In this document: positions 4,378 through 43,549 of the stretch, one piece after another | Numbering within the stretch: position 1 is the stretch's first letter | How the letters are laid out: every line of letters starts with the position of its first letter | DNA from: Enterobacteriaceae bacterium 89 | GTDB lineage: Bacteria; Pseudomonadota; Gammaproteobacteria; Enterobacterales; Enterobacteriaceae | Direction of reading: 5' to 3' | DNA length: 64,000 nt | Assembly (NCBI GenBank): GCA_014156375.1 | Contig: RQJH01000002.1 | Location: 1,084,331 to 1,148,330, forward strand | Translations under genes and position numbers: made by a program | The notes under the pieces: model-generated | What the model saw: the letters and a program-made list of their open reading frames with translations, nothing else | What the model was told of the DNA's origin: nothing | Databases searched by the model: none

Positions 4378-4433
4378 GCTTGAGCCCTTCTGCTCAACGC
4401 GCTAGCATGAATCTTTGCATTGATGGAGCGCGT

Positions 4434-5237
4434 ATGAGTCTGTTTCAAAAACTAAAATCTTCACTGCGCACCCTGTTTAAACCTCATTATTCCTGGCCCG
4501 GGCTGGACGTCAGCCTGGTCGGAGGACAGCATCTTCACCTCGTTGGCAGCATTCATATGGGCACCCGCGATATGTCGCCGCTGCCGCCAAAGCTTGTCAG
4601 CCTGATCGACCGTGCGGATGCGCTCATCGTTGAAGCGGACATCACCGGCAGCGAAACGCCCTTCAGCGATCTGCCTGCTTACCCTCCCCTGAGCGAACGG
4701 CTTTCCGCCGAACAATTTCAACAGCTTGAAACACTGGCCGATGAAATGGGGGTTTCGCTGGCGCTGGCCGACAGCCAGCCGCTGTGGCAGCTTGCCATGG
4801 TCCTGCAGGCCACTCAGGCGCAGAAACTGGGGCTGAGACCCCAGTTTGGCATTGATTACCAGATGCTGAATCAGGCTCGGGAAGCGGGGATCAAAGTGCT
4901 TGAACTGGAAGGCGCTGAGAGTCAAATTGCGCTGCTGCGCGACCTGCCGGACAACGGTCTGTCACTGCTGGAAGACACGCTGACGCACTGGCACACCAAT
5001 GCACGCCTGCTGCAGATGATGATTGGCTGGTGGCTGGAGCAGCCACCGGGCGCGGCACCGTCGCTGCCCAATACCTTCAGCCATTCACTGTATGACCTGC
5101 TGATGAATCAGCGTAATCTGGCGTGGCGGGATAAACTGCAGGCATTACCAGCGGGACGTTACGTGGTGGCAGTGGGCGCACTGCATCTGTATGGCGAAGG
5201 AAATCTGCCGACCTTGTTGAAAGCAAAGCAGAAATAA
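4434..5237 (+). CDS. ybaP: TraB/GumN-family protein YbaP
   Basis: This is the E. coli YbaP orthologue, 267 residues here. The TraB family shows two histidine-containing blocks: GSIHMGTRDM near the N-terminus and VAVGALHLYGEGNLP at the C-terminus, proposed as a metal-dependent hydrolase site. The conserved middle QPLWQLAMVLQATQAQKLGL is present. The start was placed at MSLFQKL after GGAG, rather than at a TTG 54 bases upstream. The biochemical role is not established. The stop codon overlaps the poly-U end of the convergent small RNA ChiX. Confidence 0.93.
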   Translation: MSLFQKLKSSLRTLFKPHYSWPGLDVSLVGGQHLHLVGSIHMGTRDMSPLPPKLVSLIDRADALIVEADITGSETPFSDLPAYPPLSERLSAEQFQQLETLADEMGVSLALADSQPLWQLAMVLQATQAQKLGLRPQFGIDYQMLNQAREAGIKVLELEGAESQIALLRDLPDNGLSLLEDTLTHWHTNARLLQMMIGWWLEQPPGAAPSLPNTFSHSLYDLLMNQRNLAWRDKLQALPAGRYVVAVGALHLYGEGNLPTLLKAKQK

Positions 5238-5316
5238 AAAAATGGCCAATATTTCTATTGGCCCGTCAAAGAGGAATTTCACTTTTATTATTATCCCGAA
5301 GTTCGCACTTCGGATC
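5236..5316 (-). ncRNA. chiX: ChiX small RNA (MicM/RybC/SroB)
   Basis: Reading the minus strand gives a 5' stem-loop (arms 5296-5302 and 5307-5313), an A/U-rich linker GATAATAATAAAAG, and the single-stranded seed GAAATTCCTCTTTGACGGG. A terminator hairpin (5244-5250 with 5257-5263) and seven U residues complete it. The seed and terminator match E. coli ChiX nearly base for base, and it sits between ybaP and ybaK as in E. coli. The 5' end is set from a likely promoter, TTGGCA (5346-5351) and GACAAT (5322-5327) with an 18-bp spacer. ChiX is an Hfq-dependent RNA that represses chitoporin and chitobiose genes by covering their ribosome-binding sites. The 5' stem differs in sequence from E. coli. 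Confidence 0.93.
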
Positions 5317-5404
5317 TTTCGATTGTCGCTCAAAGTAACCATCACTGCCAATACTATTGCGCAAGATCGTACTATTTTTTCGACAACGATCGGGCGTATG
5401 CTGA

Positions 5405-7893: not shown

Positions 7894-9672
7894 TCAGGCG
7901 GAAAGCGACTCTTCTTCGATACTGGCCGCCAGCTCTTCTCCGGCAAGCTGTAGCTGATACATCTGCCAGTAGCGGCCTTTTGCTTCAAGCAGTTGCTGAT
8001 GATTGCCGCGTTCCACCGCCTGCCCGCGATTCAGCACCATGATGGTATCGGCCTCTACGATGGTCGAAAGACGGTGGGCAATCACCACCAGCGTGGTGTG
8101 CTGGCGAACGGCGGCCAGCGCCTGCTGAATCGCCTGCTCCGTGCCGGAATCGATGTTTGCCGTGGCTTCATCAAGGATCAGGATTTGCGGGGTGTCCACC
8201 AGCACGCGAGCCAGCGCCAGTAGCTGCTTTTGCCCAACGGAGAGGTTGTTCCCCTGCTCGCCCAGAGGCGTGTTGATCCCTTCGCTCATTCCGCGCGCCA
8301 GCTCAGCCAGCTGTACCGTTTCCAGCGCCTGCCACACCTGCTCTTCGCTGATTTCACGCCCAAGCGCCACGTTAGCGAAGAAGGTGTCTGCCAGCACCAC
8401 CGGATCCTGCTGCACCATCGCCACGCCCTGACGCAGCACGCTATGGCTCAGCGACGAAAGCGGACGCCCGTCAAGGCGGATCTCGCCTTTGGTCAGCGGG
8501 TAATAGCCCATCAGCAGGCTGGCGAGCGTGCTTTTACCGCTGCCGGTGTGCCCGACCAGCGCCACGAAGCTGCGCGTCGGCACATTCAGATTAATGTCCT
8601 GCAGCACCAGGCGATCGCCCCGGTAGGCAAAGGAAACATTGTCGACGTCAATCGATCCGCTGGTCAGCGGACGCGGATCGTCACCGTAGGTCTGACGCGG
8701 TTTGTCCATCAGTTCAAACACGCGTTCACCGGCAACAACCGCCTGTTGCAGCATCGACTGCTGGGTGGTGAGTTCGATCAGCGGTTCATTCAGACGCCCG
8801 AGGTAGCTGATAAACGCGTACAGCACACCAACCTCAATCGTGCCTTTTGCGGTCAGGCCGAACAGCATCAGCAGGCCGCAGAGGATCAGCGAGGAGAGCA
8901 GGCTCAGCAGCGGACGCAGCAGGAAACCGTCAAGGCGCAGCGTCTGCATGCGGGCCATATAGTGCGAGCGGCTGGCTTCACCCATGCGTTCACCAAAGCG
9001 GGCCTGCTGGCGGAACTGCTGGATCACGCTCATTCCGTTGATCACTTCGTTAAAGCCGTCGTTGATGTCGGCGAGATAAGCACGAACGCGACGCACAATT
9101 GGCGTGCTGTAGCGCTGATAGATCACCATTACCACAATCACCGCCGGGAAAATCGCAATCGCCACCAGCGCCATCCGCCAGTCGAGGCTGAACATCGCCA
9201 CCAGCATCGCGCTGATCAGCGCCGCGCTGCGCAGCACGGTGGAGACAACGGTGACGTAAAGATCGCGGATCACTTCGGTATCATTGGTGACGCGGGAGAT
9301 CAGCTGTCCGACAGGCTGCACGTCAAATTCGCTGAGCGGCTGGCGCAGTGCTGCATCCATCACGTCGGTACGCAGCTGTTGCACCACGCCTACTGCCGCG
9401 CGGTTAAACAGCAGCGACTGAACGTAATGCAGCGAGGCCGCCAGCAGCTGCAGGCCCACGTATGCTGCGCCAAGACCGACGACGATCCCCAAAGGCAGAT
9501 AGCTTTTCGCCACCATATTGTCGATGAAATAGCTGATCAGCAGCGGGCCGGTGACCTCTGCCGCTGCGGCTATCCACATAATCACCATGCCGATGCCCAG
9601 CGGTTTGCGCCACGGGGAACCGTAGGCCAGCAGACGTTTCAGCGTCGGCCACAGCTGTCCGAAATTACGCAT
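7894..9672 (-). CDS. mdlB: ABC exporter half-transporter MdlB
   Basis: This is a 592-residue type-I ABC exporter subunit with an N-terminal membrane domain of about six helices and a C-terminal ATPase. Walker A is GHTGSGKST, the signature is the variant LSVGQKQ, and Walker B is ILILDEATA. It pairs with MdlA as a heterodimer; the substrate is not established. The start [15 protein letters not shown] matches E. coli MdlB, and its first codons overlap the end of mdlA by 8 bp, implying translational coupling. Confidence 0.95.
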
Positions 9673-39377: not shown

Positions 39378-39431
39378 TTGACAGAAAAAATGTTCCGTGG
39401 AAAACTCAAAAACAACTGGACTAGTCCAGTT
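39378..39431 (+). promoter_or_regulatory. Promoter and GntR-type operator of the sugar operon
   Basis: A consensus -35 TTGACA (39378-39383) is followed after 17 bp by a poor -10, AAAACT. Just downstream lies AACTGGACTAGTCCAGTT (39414-39431), a perfect 18-bp palindrome over the expected transcription start. It resembles the ACTGGTCTAGACCAGT-like sites of NagR/DasR regulators, which are HutC-type GntR proteins like the one encoded at the end of this locus. A weak partial copy, AATCCAGTT, follows at 39437. Confidence 0.75.
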
Positions 39432-39457
39432 AGCCAATCCAGTTAAAAACAATCCCT

Positions 39458-39474
39458 CCCGTCGCAGGAGGAAT
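39458..39474 (+). promoter_or_regulatory. Candidate ChiX small-RNA target in the sugar operon leader
   Basis: The leader reads CCCGTC, four bases, then GAGGAAT. The complement of the ChiX seed reads CCCGTC, three bases, then GAGGAAT. This would give 6 and 7 base pairs around a small internal loop. It covers the AGGAGG element at 39466-39471. Pairing is predicted by eye only. Confidence 0.6.
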
Positions 39475-39499
39475 AAAAACCTCGTCTGAGGAGTTGCCC

Positions 39500-40759
39500 G
39501 TGGTGACATTTATTGAGAGCAAGGTGGTGCCAGTCCTGATCCGGATTGGCGAAAACAAGATTCTGGTGGCGGTGCGTAACGGAATTGCCCTGACGCTGCC
39601 CTTTACCATTACCGGTAGCCTGTTCCTGATTATTGCTAACCTGCCCATTCCCGGTTGGAGCGAATGGCTTGGGCCATGGGCCGATAAAATCAGCGCCCCG
39701 GTCGCCGTTACTTTCGGCGCTATCGGTCTGATTTCCGCCGTCGGCATCAGCTACAACCTGGCGAAAGAGTACCAGCTCAATGCCATAACCTGTACCGCCG
39801 TGACCCTCGTGGTATTTCTGCTGGCGCAGCTGAACGACAAATACCAGCTCAACGTCGATAATCTCGGCGCGGCAGGTCTGTTCTCCGCCATTATCCTTGC
39901 GGTGCTGACGGTACACATCATCCGCTTTTTCATCGGCCGGGAAATTGTGATTAAACTGCCCGATGGCGTACCACCCGCCGTGGCGCAGTCATTTGCCAGT
40001 CTGGTGCCGGCGGCAGCCGCGATTACTCTGGTGTGGTTTGTCCGGGTGATGCTCAATTTTGATATCAACGCCTTTTTCACCACGGTACTGAGCCCGCTGG
40101 TCAGCGGTTTAGGCTCGCTGCCGGGCATGCTGGTGCTGATTTTCCTGATTTCGCTGCTATGGTGCTGCGGCATTCACGGCGATAACGTGCTGTCCGGCAT
40201 CACCAGCCCAATTTTCCTCAAATACATCGCCGAAAACACGCAGGCTTATCTCAATCATCAGCCCATTCCGCACATTACCGCTGACGGCTTTTACATCGTG
40301 TTTATGTGCATCGGCGGCACGGGGGCAACGCTCGGGCTGGTGTTGGCGATGCTGCGCTCGCGCAGCAAAATGTACAAATCCGTCGGCAAATTGTCGCTGC
40401 CTTCCGCCGTGTTCTGTATTAACGAACCGGTGATTTTTGGCTGCCCGATTGTCTTCAACCCGCTGCTGATGATCCCCTTCACCCTCACGCCAATGCTGCT
40501 GTGCGTCTCCACCTACAGCCTGATGTATTTCGACATCATCGGCCGCCCGGTGCTGCAAATTCCGTGGACCATGCCGCCGATTTTCGCCGCCTGGTTCGTT
40601 ACCGGCGGCAACATCCCGGCGGTGATTTGGTCCGTCTGCACCATCGTAATTTCCGTCGCTATCTACTTCCCGTTCTTCCGGCTGCTTGAACGTCAGCAAA
40701 TGGCAAAAGAGCAGCTGGAAAGTGAAAGCGAACTGACGCCTGACTCTGCTTCATCTTAA
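39500..40759 (+). CDS. PTS EIIC permease, lactose/cellobiose/chitobiose family
   Basis: This membrane protein of about 419 residues is a distant relative of ChbC/CelB, with family landmarks VIKLPDGVPPAVAQSFASLVPA, WCCGIHGDNVLSG, CINEPVIFGCPIVFNPLLMIPF and PWTMPPIFAAWFVTGG. EIIC forms the channel and phosphorylates the sugar using a EIIB partner. No EIIA or EIIB gene is present here, so it must borrow them. The start is uncertain: GTG at 39500 (6 nt after GAGGAG) was chosen; GTG at 39503 is equally plausible, and TTG at 39494 is too close to the ribosome-binding site. First gene of a three-gene operon. Confidence 0.88.
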   Translation: MVTFIESKVVPVLIRIGENKILVAVRNGIALTLPFTITGSLFLIIANLPIPGWSEWLGPWADKISAPVAVTFGAIGLISAVGISYNLAKEYQLNAITCTAVTLVVFLLAQLNDKYQLNVDNLGAAGLFSAIILAVLTVHIIRFFIGREIVIKLPDGVPPAVAQSFASLVPAAAAITLVWFVRVMLNFDINAFFTTVLSPLVSGLGSLPGMLVLIFLISLLWCCGIHGDNVLSGITSPIFLKYIAENTQAYLNHQPIPHITADGFYIVFMCIGGTGATLGLVLAMLRSRSKMYKSVGKLSLPSAVFCINEPVIFGCPIVFNPLLMIPFTLTPMLLCVSTYSLMYFDIIGRPVLQIPWTMPPIFAAWFVTGGNIPAVIWSVCTIVISVAIYFPFFRLLERQQMAKEQLESESELTPDSASS

Positions 40760-40769
40760 GGATAACATT

Positions 40770-42086
40770 ATGAAAAAGTTAAAAATCGTGACCATCGGCG
40801 GGGGCTCAAGCTACACCCCGGAACTGATCGACGGCTTTATCAGACGCTACGATGAACTGCCGGTGACGGACTACTGGCTGCTGGACATTGAAGAAGGCAA
40901 AGAGAAGCTGGAGATCGTCGGCAAACTGGCGCAGCGAATGGTGAAAGAGGCCGGGATCCCAATGACTATCCATCTGTCGCTGAACCGGGAAGAAGCGCTG
41001 AAGGACGCGGATTTTGTCACTACCCAACTACGCGTTGGTTTTCTGGATGCGCGTATCAACGACGAAAAAATTCCGCTGAAATACGGCGTGCTCGGCCAGG
41101 AAACCACCGGCCCCGGCGGCTTTATGAAGGCCCAGCGCACCATTCCGGTGCTGATGGATATCTGCCGCGATATGGAAAAATACTGCCCGGACGCGTGGCT
41201 GATTAACTTCACCAATCCGGCGGGGATCGTCACCGAAGCCATCACCCGCCACTCGAAAATCAAAAGCATCGGTATTTGCAGCGGTGCCAACAGCATGTTG
41301 ATGGACATCGCCAAAGCTTATGAGGTGGAAAAGAAAGACGTTTATGCCCGCATCATGGGTCTCAACCACCTGATCTTTGCCGACCAGATTTTCATTAAGG
41401 GCGAAGACTATACCGATGATTTTATGGCAAAACTGGCTCAGGGCAGCGCCAGCAACACGCTGAAAAACATCCCGGACATTGGCTTCTCATCCCGCTTTGC
41501 CAAAGCGCTGCACATGTACCCGATTTCCTATCTGAAGTATTTCTTCCTGACCCGTGAAATGGTGGAAGCGGCGCAGAAGGATGCCGGAACCAAAGGCACG
41601 CGCGGTGAGCAAACCCGCGAAATTGAGCATCGCCTGTTCGAGCTGTATCAGGATCCTAAACTTTCCCATAAGCCGAAAGAGCTGGAAAAGCGCGGAGGAG
41701 CCTGGTATTCCGATACCGCCTGTTCGATCATCAGCTCAATCTACAATGACAAAAAAGAGATCCACGTGGTCAACACCGTTAACAACGGCACCACGCCAGA
41801 TCTGCCGGATCACGTGACGCTGGAAACCAACGCGATGATCGACCGCAGCGGTGCACATCCACTGGCCTACGGTCGCCTTCCGGTAAAAATTCGCGGTTTG
41901 ATCCAGAGCGTGAAGGCCTACGAAGAGCTGGCGGTTGAAGCCGCTATCACCGGCGACTACAGCACCGCGCTGATGGCGCTGACCATCAACCCGCTTGTGC
42001 CGTCGGCCACGCTTGCCGAGAAGATCCTCGACGAGTATCTGGAAGTGAACCAGCGTTATTTACCGCAGTATCAGCACAAAAGCTAA
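40770..42086 (+). CDS. GH4 family 6-phospho-glycosidase (6-phospho-beta-glucosidase/ChbF-like)
   Basis: The 438-residue protein starts with the NAD-binding motif KIVTIGGGSSYTPEL of glycoside hydrolase family 4. It has the family blocks DADFVTTQLRVG, LGQETTGPGGF and INFTNPAGIVTEA, the metal-ligand cysteine in IGICSGANS and the metal-ligand histidine in MGLNHLIF. GH4 enzymes use NAD+ and a divalent metal, usually Mn2+, to cleave phosphorylated disaccharides. It starts 11 bp after the EIIC gene. It is nearer ChbF/LicH than maltose-phosphate enzymes. The exact substrate is unknown. Confidence 0.9.
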   Translation: MKKLKIVTIGGGSSYTPELIDGFIRRYDELPVTDYWLLDIEEGKEKLEIVGKLAQRMVKEAGIPMTIHLSLNREEALKDADFVTTQLRVGFLDARINDEKIPLKYGVLGQETTGPGGFMKAQRTIPVLMDICRDMEKYCPDAWLINFTNPAGIVTEAITRHSKIKSIGICSGANSMLMDIAKAYEVEKKDVYARIMGLNHLIFADQIFIKGEDYTDDFMAKLAQGSASNTLKNIPDIGFSSRFAKALHMYPISYLKYFFLTREMVEAAQKDAGTKGTRGEQTREIEHRLFELYQDPKLSHKPKELEKRGGAWYSDTACSIISSIYNDKKEIHVVNTVNNGTTPDLPDHVTLETNAMIDRSGAHPLAYGRLPVKIRGLIQSVKAYEELAVEAAITGDYSTALMALTINPLVPSATLAEKILDEYLEVNQRYLPQYQHKS

Positions 42087-42095
42087 GGAGCAGCG

Positions 42096-42818
42096 ATGAA
42101 AACTTTTATCTCCCCTGACTATCAGCAGCTATCAGAAGCCGTGGCAAAGAACGTGATTGACTGCGTTAACGCGAAACCCAACGCGCTAATCTGCATCGCG
42201 GGTGGCGATACGCCGCTGGGCGTGTTTGCTGCGCTTGTGGAAGCGCAAAAGCAGGGTCGCGTGGACTTTTCACAAACTCAGTTTCTGGGGCTGGATGAAT
42301 GGCTCGGTTTGGGGAAAGCCGACAAAGGCAGCTGCCGGGAAATGGTGTGGAGCCACTTCTTCGATAAGCTGACGCTACGCGATGAGCAGATCTGCTTCTT
42401 TGACGGGCTGACCGACAGCCCGCAGGCCGAATGCCAGCGCGTCGACGGTTATATTGCGCAGCACGGTCCGATTGACTGTATCGTGCTCGGCATCGGCATG
42501 AACGGGCACATCGGCTTCAACGAACCGGGCGCTTCGCTTAATAACACCTGCCACGTTATCGATCTTGATCCGATAACCCAGACGGTCTCGGTGAAGTATT
42601 TCGGCACCGCGCGGGACGTGAAGCAGGGCATTTCGCTGGGGCTGAAAACCATTCTGGCGGCTGAGAACATCGTTCTGATGGCAAGCGGAGAGAAGAAAGC
42701 GGATATCGTGGCACAAACGGTGAATGCTCTGGCCAGCAATGCTATTCCGTCAACGCTGGTGAAAACAGCAAAACGAGCGGCGCTGTACGTGGATAAGGCC
42801 GCAGCCAGCGCGCTTTAA
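42096..42818 (+). CDS. Glucosamine-6-phosphate deaminase-like protein (short NagB form)
   Basis: The 240-residue protein has the NagB fold, with GGDTPLGVFAALVE, FLGLDEWLGL (ring-opening aspartate) and GIGMNGHIGFNEPGASL (catalytic histidine and glutamate). It is shorter than E. coli NagB (266 residues). It has Asn where E. coli has the catalytic Asp141 (NDGH), as in the short forms I recall from Bacillus. It probably converts glucosamine-6-phosphate, released by the GH4 enzyme, to fructose-6-phosphate. AAGGAG precedes the ATG. Its stop overlaps that of the convergent regulator. Confidence 0.88.
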   Translation: MKTFISPDYQQLSEAVAKNVIDCVNAKPNALICIAGGDTPLGVFAALVEAQKQGRVDFSQTQFLGLDEWLGLGKADKGSCREMVWSHFFDKLTLRDEQICFFDGLTDSPQAECQRVDGYIAQHGPIDCIVLGIGMNGHIGFNEPGASLNNTCHVIDLDPITQTVSVKYFGTARDVKQGISLGLKTILAAENIVLMASGEKKADIVAQTVNALASNAIPSTLVKTAKRAALYVDKAAASAL

Positions 42819-43549
42819 CGTTCGATACGCAGGTTTTTGACGCGGAAGATATCCGCACGGTTGTAGCTGATGGAGAAGTTGAACGCGGTTTTATCGGCAA
42901 GCCGCGTCACTTCGGTAATCTTCAGCATCGGCTGGCCGCTGGCAATGTTCAGCAGGCCAGCCAGCTCGCCATCGAACAGTGCGGCTTCGATGATCGAATC
43001 CGCATCTTTAATTTTCTTGCCGGTAAACTCTTCGATATAGCCGTACAGCGAACCTTCGCGCAGGATACTTTCGGGAATAGTGCTGATAATGCTCTGCGGG
43101 ATATTGCTGTCTTCCACCAGCACCGGATTGCCGTCGAGCAGGCGGATACGGCGGATAAACCAGACGTTATCGCCCGGATTAATTTCCAGATGCTGAGCCA
43201 GTTCGTCATCAGCCTGGATCACCTCAAACTTCAGCAGCTGGCTGCTGACTTTGACGCGCCCCTGAAACTCACGGGAAAAACCGAGGATGCTGTCGCTGGT
43301 TTCATTATTGAGGATATAGACGCTGGTGGCGGTATTCTTCAGCACGAACATGCCTTTACCATGAATACGCTCGATAAACCCTTCCTGCACCAGAATATCC
43401 ATTGCTTTTTGCACGGTGATGCGCGTCACGCCGTACAGCGCCGCCAGCTCGCGCTCCGAGGGAATGCTTTCGCCTTTTTTATAGGTCTGATTGAGGATAT
43501 CGCCTTTGATGCGTTCCTTAATTTCGACGTATTTATGCTGCTTTTGCAT
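42815..43549 (-). CDS. GntR/HutC-family regulator of the sugar locus
   Basis: The 244-residue protein has an N-terminal winged helix (GESIPSERELAALYGVTRITVQKAMDIL) and a C-terminal UTRA ligand-binding domain. HutC-type members such as NagR sense amino-sugar phosphates. It is convergent with the operon and shares the TAA region with the deaminase. The palindrome at the operon promoter is its probable operator. No obvious copy of that palindrome lies before its own start. Confidence 0.92.
   Translation of the reverse strand: MQKQHKYVEIKERIKGDILNQTYKKGESIPSERELAALYGVTRITVQKAMDILVQEGFIERIHGKGMFVLKNTATSVYILNNETSDSILGFSREFQGRVKVSSQLLKFEVIQADDELAQHLEINPGDNVWFIRRIRLLDGNPVLVEDSNIPQSIISTIPESILREGSLYGYIEEFTGKKIKDADSIIEAALFDGELAGLLNIASGQPMLKITEVTRLADKTAFNFSISYNRADIFRVKNLRIER

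Follow-up and report, generated by a model that had tools for sequence, protein, structure and literature searches.

The locus examined here raises the question of whether the small RNA ChiX has acquired a site in the leader of a PTS operon that lies outside chb. A sequence-only reading of a window of 64,000 nucleotides (the whole stretch of DNA that was analysed) from an enterobacterial genome had noticed a two-part match to the ChiX seed in this leader, and had proposed the operon as a new ChiX target or a second decoy. We examined the genes, the leader, the predicted hybrid and the orthologous leaders of related genomes.

The operon begins on the plus strand with a PTS EIIC permease of the lactose/cellobiose family (39500-40759; TIGR00410 over its cut-off, PF02378), which is followed on the same strand by a family 4 glycoside hydrolase resembling 6-phospho-beta-glucosidases (40770-42086; PF02056 and PF11975) and by a glucosamine/galactosamine-6-phosphate deaminase-like enzyme (42096-42818; PF01182). 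The nearest solved structure to the hydrolase is 1s6y, and its nearest relatives in the PDB are 6-phospho-beta-glucosidases, while all 8 NCBIfam matches of the deaminase-like protein were below their cut-offs. A GntR/UTRA regulator is encoded on the minus strand at 42815-43549 (PF00392 and PF07702); all 25 NCBIfam regulator models listed for it were below their cut-offs, and from its position it presumably regulates this operon. The permease had been described as ChbC-like, and it is indeed an EIIC of the lactose/cellobiose family. However, it scored 194.1 bits against the curated ChbC cut-off of 760, which places the operon outside chb, and its identity is 40% to another paralogue and just 30% to the genome's true ChbC, so that the description overstates the chitobiose link.

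The ChiX gene itself (sroB, RF00368) is located at 5236-5317 on the minus strand, with an Rfam score of 81.9 bits against a cut-off of 44, and is the only sroB/ChiX match in the 4.72-Mb genome. Its seed is AUUCCUCUUUGACGGG, and the plus strand opposite ChiX reads CCCGTCAAAGAGGAAT. A plus-strand frame at 4380-5237, which by its position we take to be ybaP-like, shares its last two bases (5236-5237) with the 3' end of chiX, which lies on the opposite strand. The genome contains one OprD-family gene, which we took for the chitoporin gene chiP; the chiP leader sequence here is GTCAAAGAGGATATACACATG, and its own chiP site is GTCAAAGAGGA. The true chbC was found at G000:C2:151053-152408 with 921.7 bits. 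The spacer between chbB and chbC reads CCCGTCAAAGAGTAATTTCAC in six of the seven genus genomes, this one included, and GTTATTTCAC in G247, where chbBC has one further mismatch beyond the core (loci L047 and L055-L060). When the chbBC spacer of this genome was paired with the window ChiX, the match spanned 21 bases, interrupted by a single central mismatch, at -30.9 kcal/mol; the ChiX of the other genus genomes differs at the far end of this 21-base stretch. The segment TGAAATTCCTCTTTGACGGGCC of ChiX is unchanged in all seven genus genomes, and the chiP site GTCAAAGAGGATATACACATG and the chbBC core CCCGTCAAAGAG are likewise present in 7/7. The usual ChiX circuit, comprising ChiX, the chiP site and the chbBC site, appears to be present in this genome, so that chiP and chbBC could be used as an internal positive control.

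The ChiX-complementary block lies at 39458-39474 on the plus strand and consists of CCCGTC (39458-39463), GCAG (39464-39467) and GAGGAAT (39468-39474); the letters reported for the two matching parts opposite the ChiX complement proved to be exact. The match had been counted as 13 base pairs. The match is real, but the count was too low, since the best hybrid, CCCGUCG-[C]-AGGAGGAAU with the ChiX seed, joins 16 base pairs, two of them G-U, around a single bulged C. Its energy is -23.9 kcal/mol, and it engages ChiX bases 40-56, the same as chbBC. As the proposal would require, the hybrid exceeded those of shuffled leaders: none of 1000 dinucleotide shuffles was as strong, nor was any of 500 shuffled ChiX segments. 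A further block-shuffle control (0/1000) says little, because it is dominated by a second site at 39480-39496. By hybrid energy alone, the block is stronger than the chiP site (-23.9 vs -21.8 kcal/mol) and ranks first among 55 window leaders, its own included. These leaders belong to frames selected for a length of at least 100 amino acids, and not all of these frames need be genes.

Matches of this kind occur elsewhere as well. Over both strands of the window, one place other than chiX and the leader reaches -23.9 kcal/mol or below, at 8466-8487, antisense to a 628-amino-acid frame that appears ABC transporter-like by eye. In the whole genome, the pattern CCCGTCN{2,5}GAGGAA occurs four times, against none for a control pattern. 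Two of these occurrences are chiX itself and the operon leader, the third lies within an inverted repeat close to the 3' side of a beta-lactamase-like frame, and the fourth is antisense to a frame that looks amino-acid permease-like, both by eye. Before the other EIIC genes of the genome we found no ChiX sites in the four of four tested, whose starts were picked by script and whose best hybrids were -13.2 to -15.2 kcal/mol; the remaining paralogue is chbC itself. We estimate the chance of such a match at about 1e-3 per leader and about 0.05 over the approximately 55 window leaders, and estimate that a few such leaders would be expected by chance in the whole genome. We regard these odds as suggestive, not compelling.

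Inspection by eye and alignment revealed a likely promoter at 39378-39406 on the plus strand, composed of TTGACA (39378-39383), a 17-base spacer ending in TGG and AAAACT (39401-39406). Its TTGAC and AAAACT are unchanged in all 11 aligned leaders, and a simple promoter scan of the leader did not report the element. Transcription would start at about 39413, which would place the block on the transcript, downstream of the likely promoter and upstream of the Shine-Dalgarno sequence. The palindrome ACTGGACTAGTCCAGT (ACTGGNNTANNCCAGT) at 39415-39430 on the same strand, whose ACTGG and CCAGT are invariant in 11/11 aligned leaders, is probably the operator of the GntR/UTRA regulator of the operon. Further downstream, a hairpin, hereafter hairpin A, is predicted at 39455-39471 with a pair probability of about 0.8, in which CCUCC (39455-39459) and GGAGG (39467-39471) enclose the loop CGUCGCA. 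The sequence and the alignment then show an A-rich linker, AAUAAAAA, at 39472-39479, and a predicted hairpin B at 39480-39491 (CCUC, loop GUCU, GAGG), which covers the Shine-Dalgarno sequence GAGGAG at 39488-39493, 6 bases before the GTG start codon of EIIC at 39500. The start codon is GTG in 11 of 12 leaders and ATG in that of a Sebaldella-named MAG (L034).

The block had also been said to cover an AGGAGG element. This element does exist at 39466-39471, but it is not the Shine-Dalgarno sequence, since 28 bases separate it from the GTG, and the true GAGGAG at 39488-39493 is outside the block. The footprint of ChiX on the block ends 13 bases short of the Shine-Dalgarno sequence and lies 26-42 bases upstream of the start. 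The second, weaker ChiX match at 39480-39496 (CCUCGUC-bulge-UGAGGAGU, -18.2 kcal/mol) is positioned over the true Shine-Dalgarno sequence. Two other roles for the leader were considered and rejected. A leader peptide is not plausible because the leader has no AUG and because the spacing after hairpin A varies by one base among relatives (by eye), which shifts the frame; a search for Rfam riboswitch or leader families gave nothing near threshold.

We then compared net energies after subtraction of the unfolding cost, using a home-made approximation from ViennaRNA duplexes and unpaired-constraint energies. By this method the leader block reached -6.7 kcal/mol, compared with -16.1 for chiP and -19.2 for chbBC of the same genome; with the window ChiX, the seven chiP sites ranged from -14.3 to -16.1 and the seven chbBC sites from -16.9 to -19.9. 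The leader block takes 8.8 kcal/mol to open, more than the chiP site (3.9) or the chbBC site (3.0), and opening ChiX bases 41-56 takes another 8.4 kcal/mol. The leader value was stable, varying from -6.7 to -7.6 when the leader ends were set in 20 different ways, and ranks 5th of 55, with four other window leaders better. The leaders of five congeners, which lack the block, gave -3.5 to -6.7 with the window ChiX and -3.2 to -6.2 when each was paired with the ChiX of its own genome, at their Shine-Dalgarno sequence. The net energy of the block is therefore unlike that of chiP and chbBC, and it is unremarkable because the site is predicted to lie inside a hairpin.

The genus sample comprised seven genomes, six of which carry the EIIC of the operon at E <= 1e-140. 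To these six we added the leaders of Buttiauxella sp. B2, Enterobacter sp. kpr-6, two Pseudocitrobacter, G009 and the Sebaldella-named MAG, giving 12 leaders; loci in which EIIC directly follows the end of another gene (L016-L022, L026 and L036-L046) are without a comparable leader and were uncounted, and L014 is the same record as L032. Conservation of the CCCGTC and GAGGAAT blocks in orthologous leaders, a check suggested with the original proposal, was not borne out: the two-part block occurs only in the window itself, that is, in 1/6 of the genus members with the operon and 1/12 of the leaders, and is absent from the 11 others. At the corresponding position, the five operon-bearing congeners have sequences such as CACCTCCTGACACGCCCCCGGCAGGAGGCAT or AACCTTCAGTGCCCAACAACAGAAGGCAT, and CCCGTC-N2-5-GAGGAA was found in the leader of none of them (0/5). 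In contrast to this 1/6, all seven genus genomes retain the seed of ChiX as well as the chiP site and the core of chbBC. The EIIC DNA of the window species is 83.4-85.2% identical (ungapped) to that of the five congeners and Buttiauxella B2; the window species is thus a lone branch, which leaves room for a gain of the block on its own branch.

When synteny was compared over 12 records, eight had the operon between yajL and thiI DNA, the thiI identities here meaning presence of thiI DNA only, and three had a hydrolase-EIIC-regulator arrangement. The Sebaldella-named MAG has all four genes with neither yajL nor thiI as a neighbour, and its DJ-1-family gene is 31% identical to yajL. Its operon (L034:3348-7497, on a contig of 29% GC) preserves the gene order, with identities of 81% for EIIC, 78% for the hydrolase, 54% for the deaminase-like enzyme and 67% for the regulator, and it shares the ACTGG...CCAGT palindrome. 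This points to a transfer between distant phyla or to a misnamed bin.

What the leaders do conserve was examined in the alignment of 11 leaders, from which L034 was left out. The CCTC and GAGG of hairpin B are kept in 10/11. The exception is kpr-6, which is without CCTC and yet has another small stem predicted over its Shine-Dalgarno sequence. The pair probability of hairpin B was 0.79-0.99 in eight of the nine leaders scored and 0.28 in Buttiauxella B2, and its arms are invariant and hence show no covariation. Hairpin A is favoured in five of the 12 leaders (the window, G041, G177, G246 and G248; pair probability 0.62-0.99), weak in Buttiauxella B2 (0.28), hardly predicted in three Pseudocitrobacter-type leaders (0.04), and missing in G249 and kpr-6, with L034 unscored. 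Since hairpin A is lost in G249 and kpr-6 and CCTC in kpr-6, neither element is essential. G248, G249 and kpr-6 each differ in their hairpins (L028:4440-4506, L029:4440-4506 and L031:4470-4506), showing that this leader changes fast, and the block falls on the fast-changing hairpin A.

Over five hand-picked types of hairpin A arms, 28 of 30 cells pair in a hand-chosen register, with changes on both sides at 4/6 pairs, and 2/120 arm permutations pair as well as the real arms in that register. Identical arms were merged for this count, and G249 and kpr-6 (both without hairpin A) and L034 were omitted; because MAFFT had broken up the left arm of the window sequence, a script was used to count pairs directly from the arms. 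One compensatory change is firm, namely CCUUC/GAAGG in G248, in which the fold is favoured; the other three are less firm, since they come from Buttiauxella B2 (0.28) and the Pseudocitrobacter-type leaders (0.04). Since only one compensatory change occurs in a leader that favours the fold, we regard hairpins A and B as plausible, not proven. The odds of the main readings are unchanged by this, because they are independent of the compensatory changes in hairpin A.

Based on these observations, we suggest, with a probability of about 0.6, that the leader match is either incidental or, at most, a weak contact of very recent origin. Coincidence (or such a recent gain) is likelier than an established control site because the block is absent from the relatives examined and predicted to be folded away. 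The primary control of the operon would be exerted by the GntR/UTRA repressor on the palindrome just downstream of the -10 element. The short leader is predicted to fold into hairpin A, the A-rich linker and the small hairpin B, in which CCUC opposite the Shine-Dalgarno sequence possibly limits translation. ChiX complementarity would be a species-specific product of hairpin A, with its C-rich left arm and loop and its G-rich right arm, and of an A after the right arm, where the four congeners with hairpin A have a C. Some results are awkward for coincidence: the hybrid beats chiP and 1000/1000 shuffles, and hairpin A is itself not universal among the leaders. Hairpin A alone was ruled out as the cause of the match, as only 2/2000 simulated leaders with fixed hairpin arms and a random loop reached the hybrid energy. 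If the match is incidental, it illustrates how an sRNA whose seed resembles an anti-Shine-Dalgarno sequence can have its target mimicked by a C-rich/G-rich hairpin close to a Shine-Dalgarno sequence, and why checks of conservation and accessibility are needed.

The strength of the 16-pair hybrid, its first rank among the 55 leaders and the full ChiX system would favour a genuine ChiX target restricted to this species, with the operon repressed in the absence of chitosugars; so would the likely promoter upstream of the block and the amino-sugar-phosphate deaminase-like enzyme encoded by the last gene of the operon. Pairing could start at the CGUC of the site, which lies in the loop predicted for hairpin A, and ChiX, once paired with 39458-39474, could open this hairpin, so that GGAGG of its right arm would no longer compete for CCUC; as a result, the Shine-Dalgarno hairpin B would be favoured or ribosome entry blocked. 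This part of the original proposal stood only so far, as the block is absent in 5/5 congeners with the operon, the net energy is poor, and the footprint leaves the Shine-Dalgarno sequence uncovered, and we judge a true target to be rather unlikely. The more specific idea, that ChiX recruited a non-chb PTS operon on one branch through a 16-pair bulged site that remodels the leader hairpins, we hold to be less probable still; if true, this recruitment would link the chitosugar state to a second beta-glycoside pathway, and would offer a clear case of an sRNA target caught soon after its acquisition, the old targets being kept in all genus genomes examined. The conserved parts of the leader might rather serve another sRNA, an RNA-binding protein or a temperature response on hairpin B, with no part for ChiX, as the CCTC and GAGG kept in 10/11 leaders, the high pair probability of hairpin B in 8/9 and the firm change in G248 would allow. 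However, no Rfam family reaches threshold in the leader and hairpin A or CCTC is lost in G249 and kpr-6, and we find such a regulator very unlikely. The proposed second decoy, in which the induced leader would soak up ChiX and raise the chitoporin as the chbBC spacer does, has precedents in that spacer and in the sponge ChiZ derived from a 5' UTR, as described in passages of PMC7815308, and would engage the same ChiX seed. It found no evidence of its own, as the chbBC site of this genome is far stronger in hybrid and net energy (-30.9 and -19.2 kcal/mol), with its core in 7/7 genomes, and the leader has no visible sign of a released sponge RNA; we hardly expect it to apply.

The pairing of ChiX with chiP and the chbBC decoy are described in passages of PMC4098024 and PMC7815308. 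According to PMC4114697, the mRNA site arose later than the sRNA site in 52/60 E. coli interactions, which keeps a young target under consideration, and ChiX and chiP were co-gained. ChiX can also act by Hfq titration without pairing (passages of PMC5006887), and in Klebsiella it is among the Hfq-bound sRNAs, with its target unnamed in the passages of PMC10907235. Among literature titles covering few subscription journals, none concerned ChiX with an operon of this kind or with a 6-phospho-beta-glucosidase.

Compared with these systems, the leader block shares with ChiX-chiP the same ChiX seed and a position in the 5' leader of a sugar-uptake gene. However, the chiP site, with its contiguous core of 11 bases, has greater accessibility, extends to the start region and is kept in 7/7 genomes, whereas the leader block is bulged, sits 26-42 bases before the start codon within a predicted hairpin and is found in 1/6. 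With the chbBC spacer decoy it has in common the CCCGTC block and the engagement of ChiX bases 40-56, but the chbBC site is intergenic and pairs over 21 bases with one mismatch at -30.9 kcal/mol, while the block is located in a leader. The operon as a whole is like GntR/UTRA-controlled PTS disaccharide operons in having a convergent GntR/UTRA gene at its end and a palindrome that follows the -10 element, and we take it to resemble the PTS operons of the trehalose repressor family.
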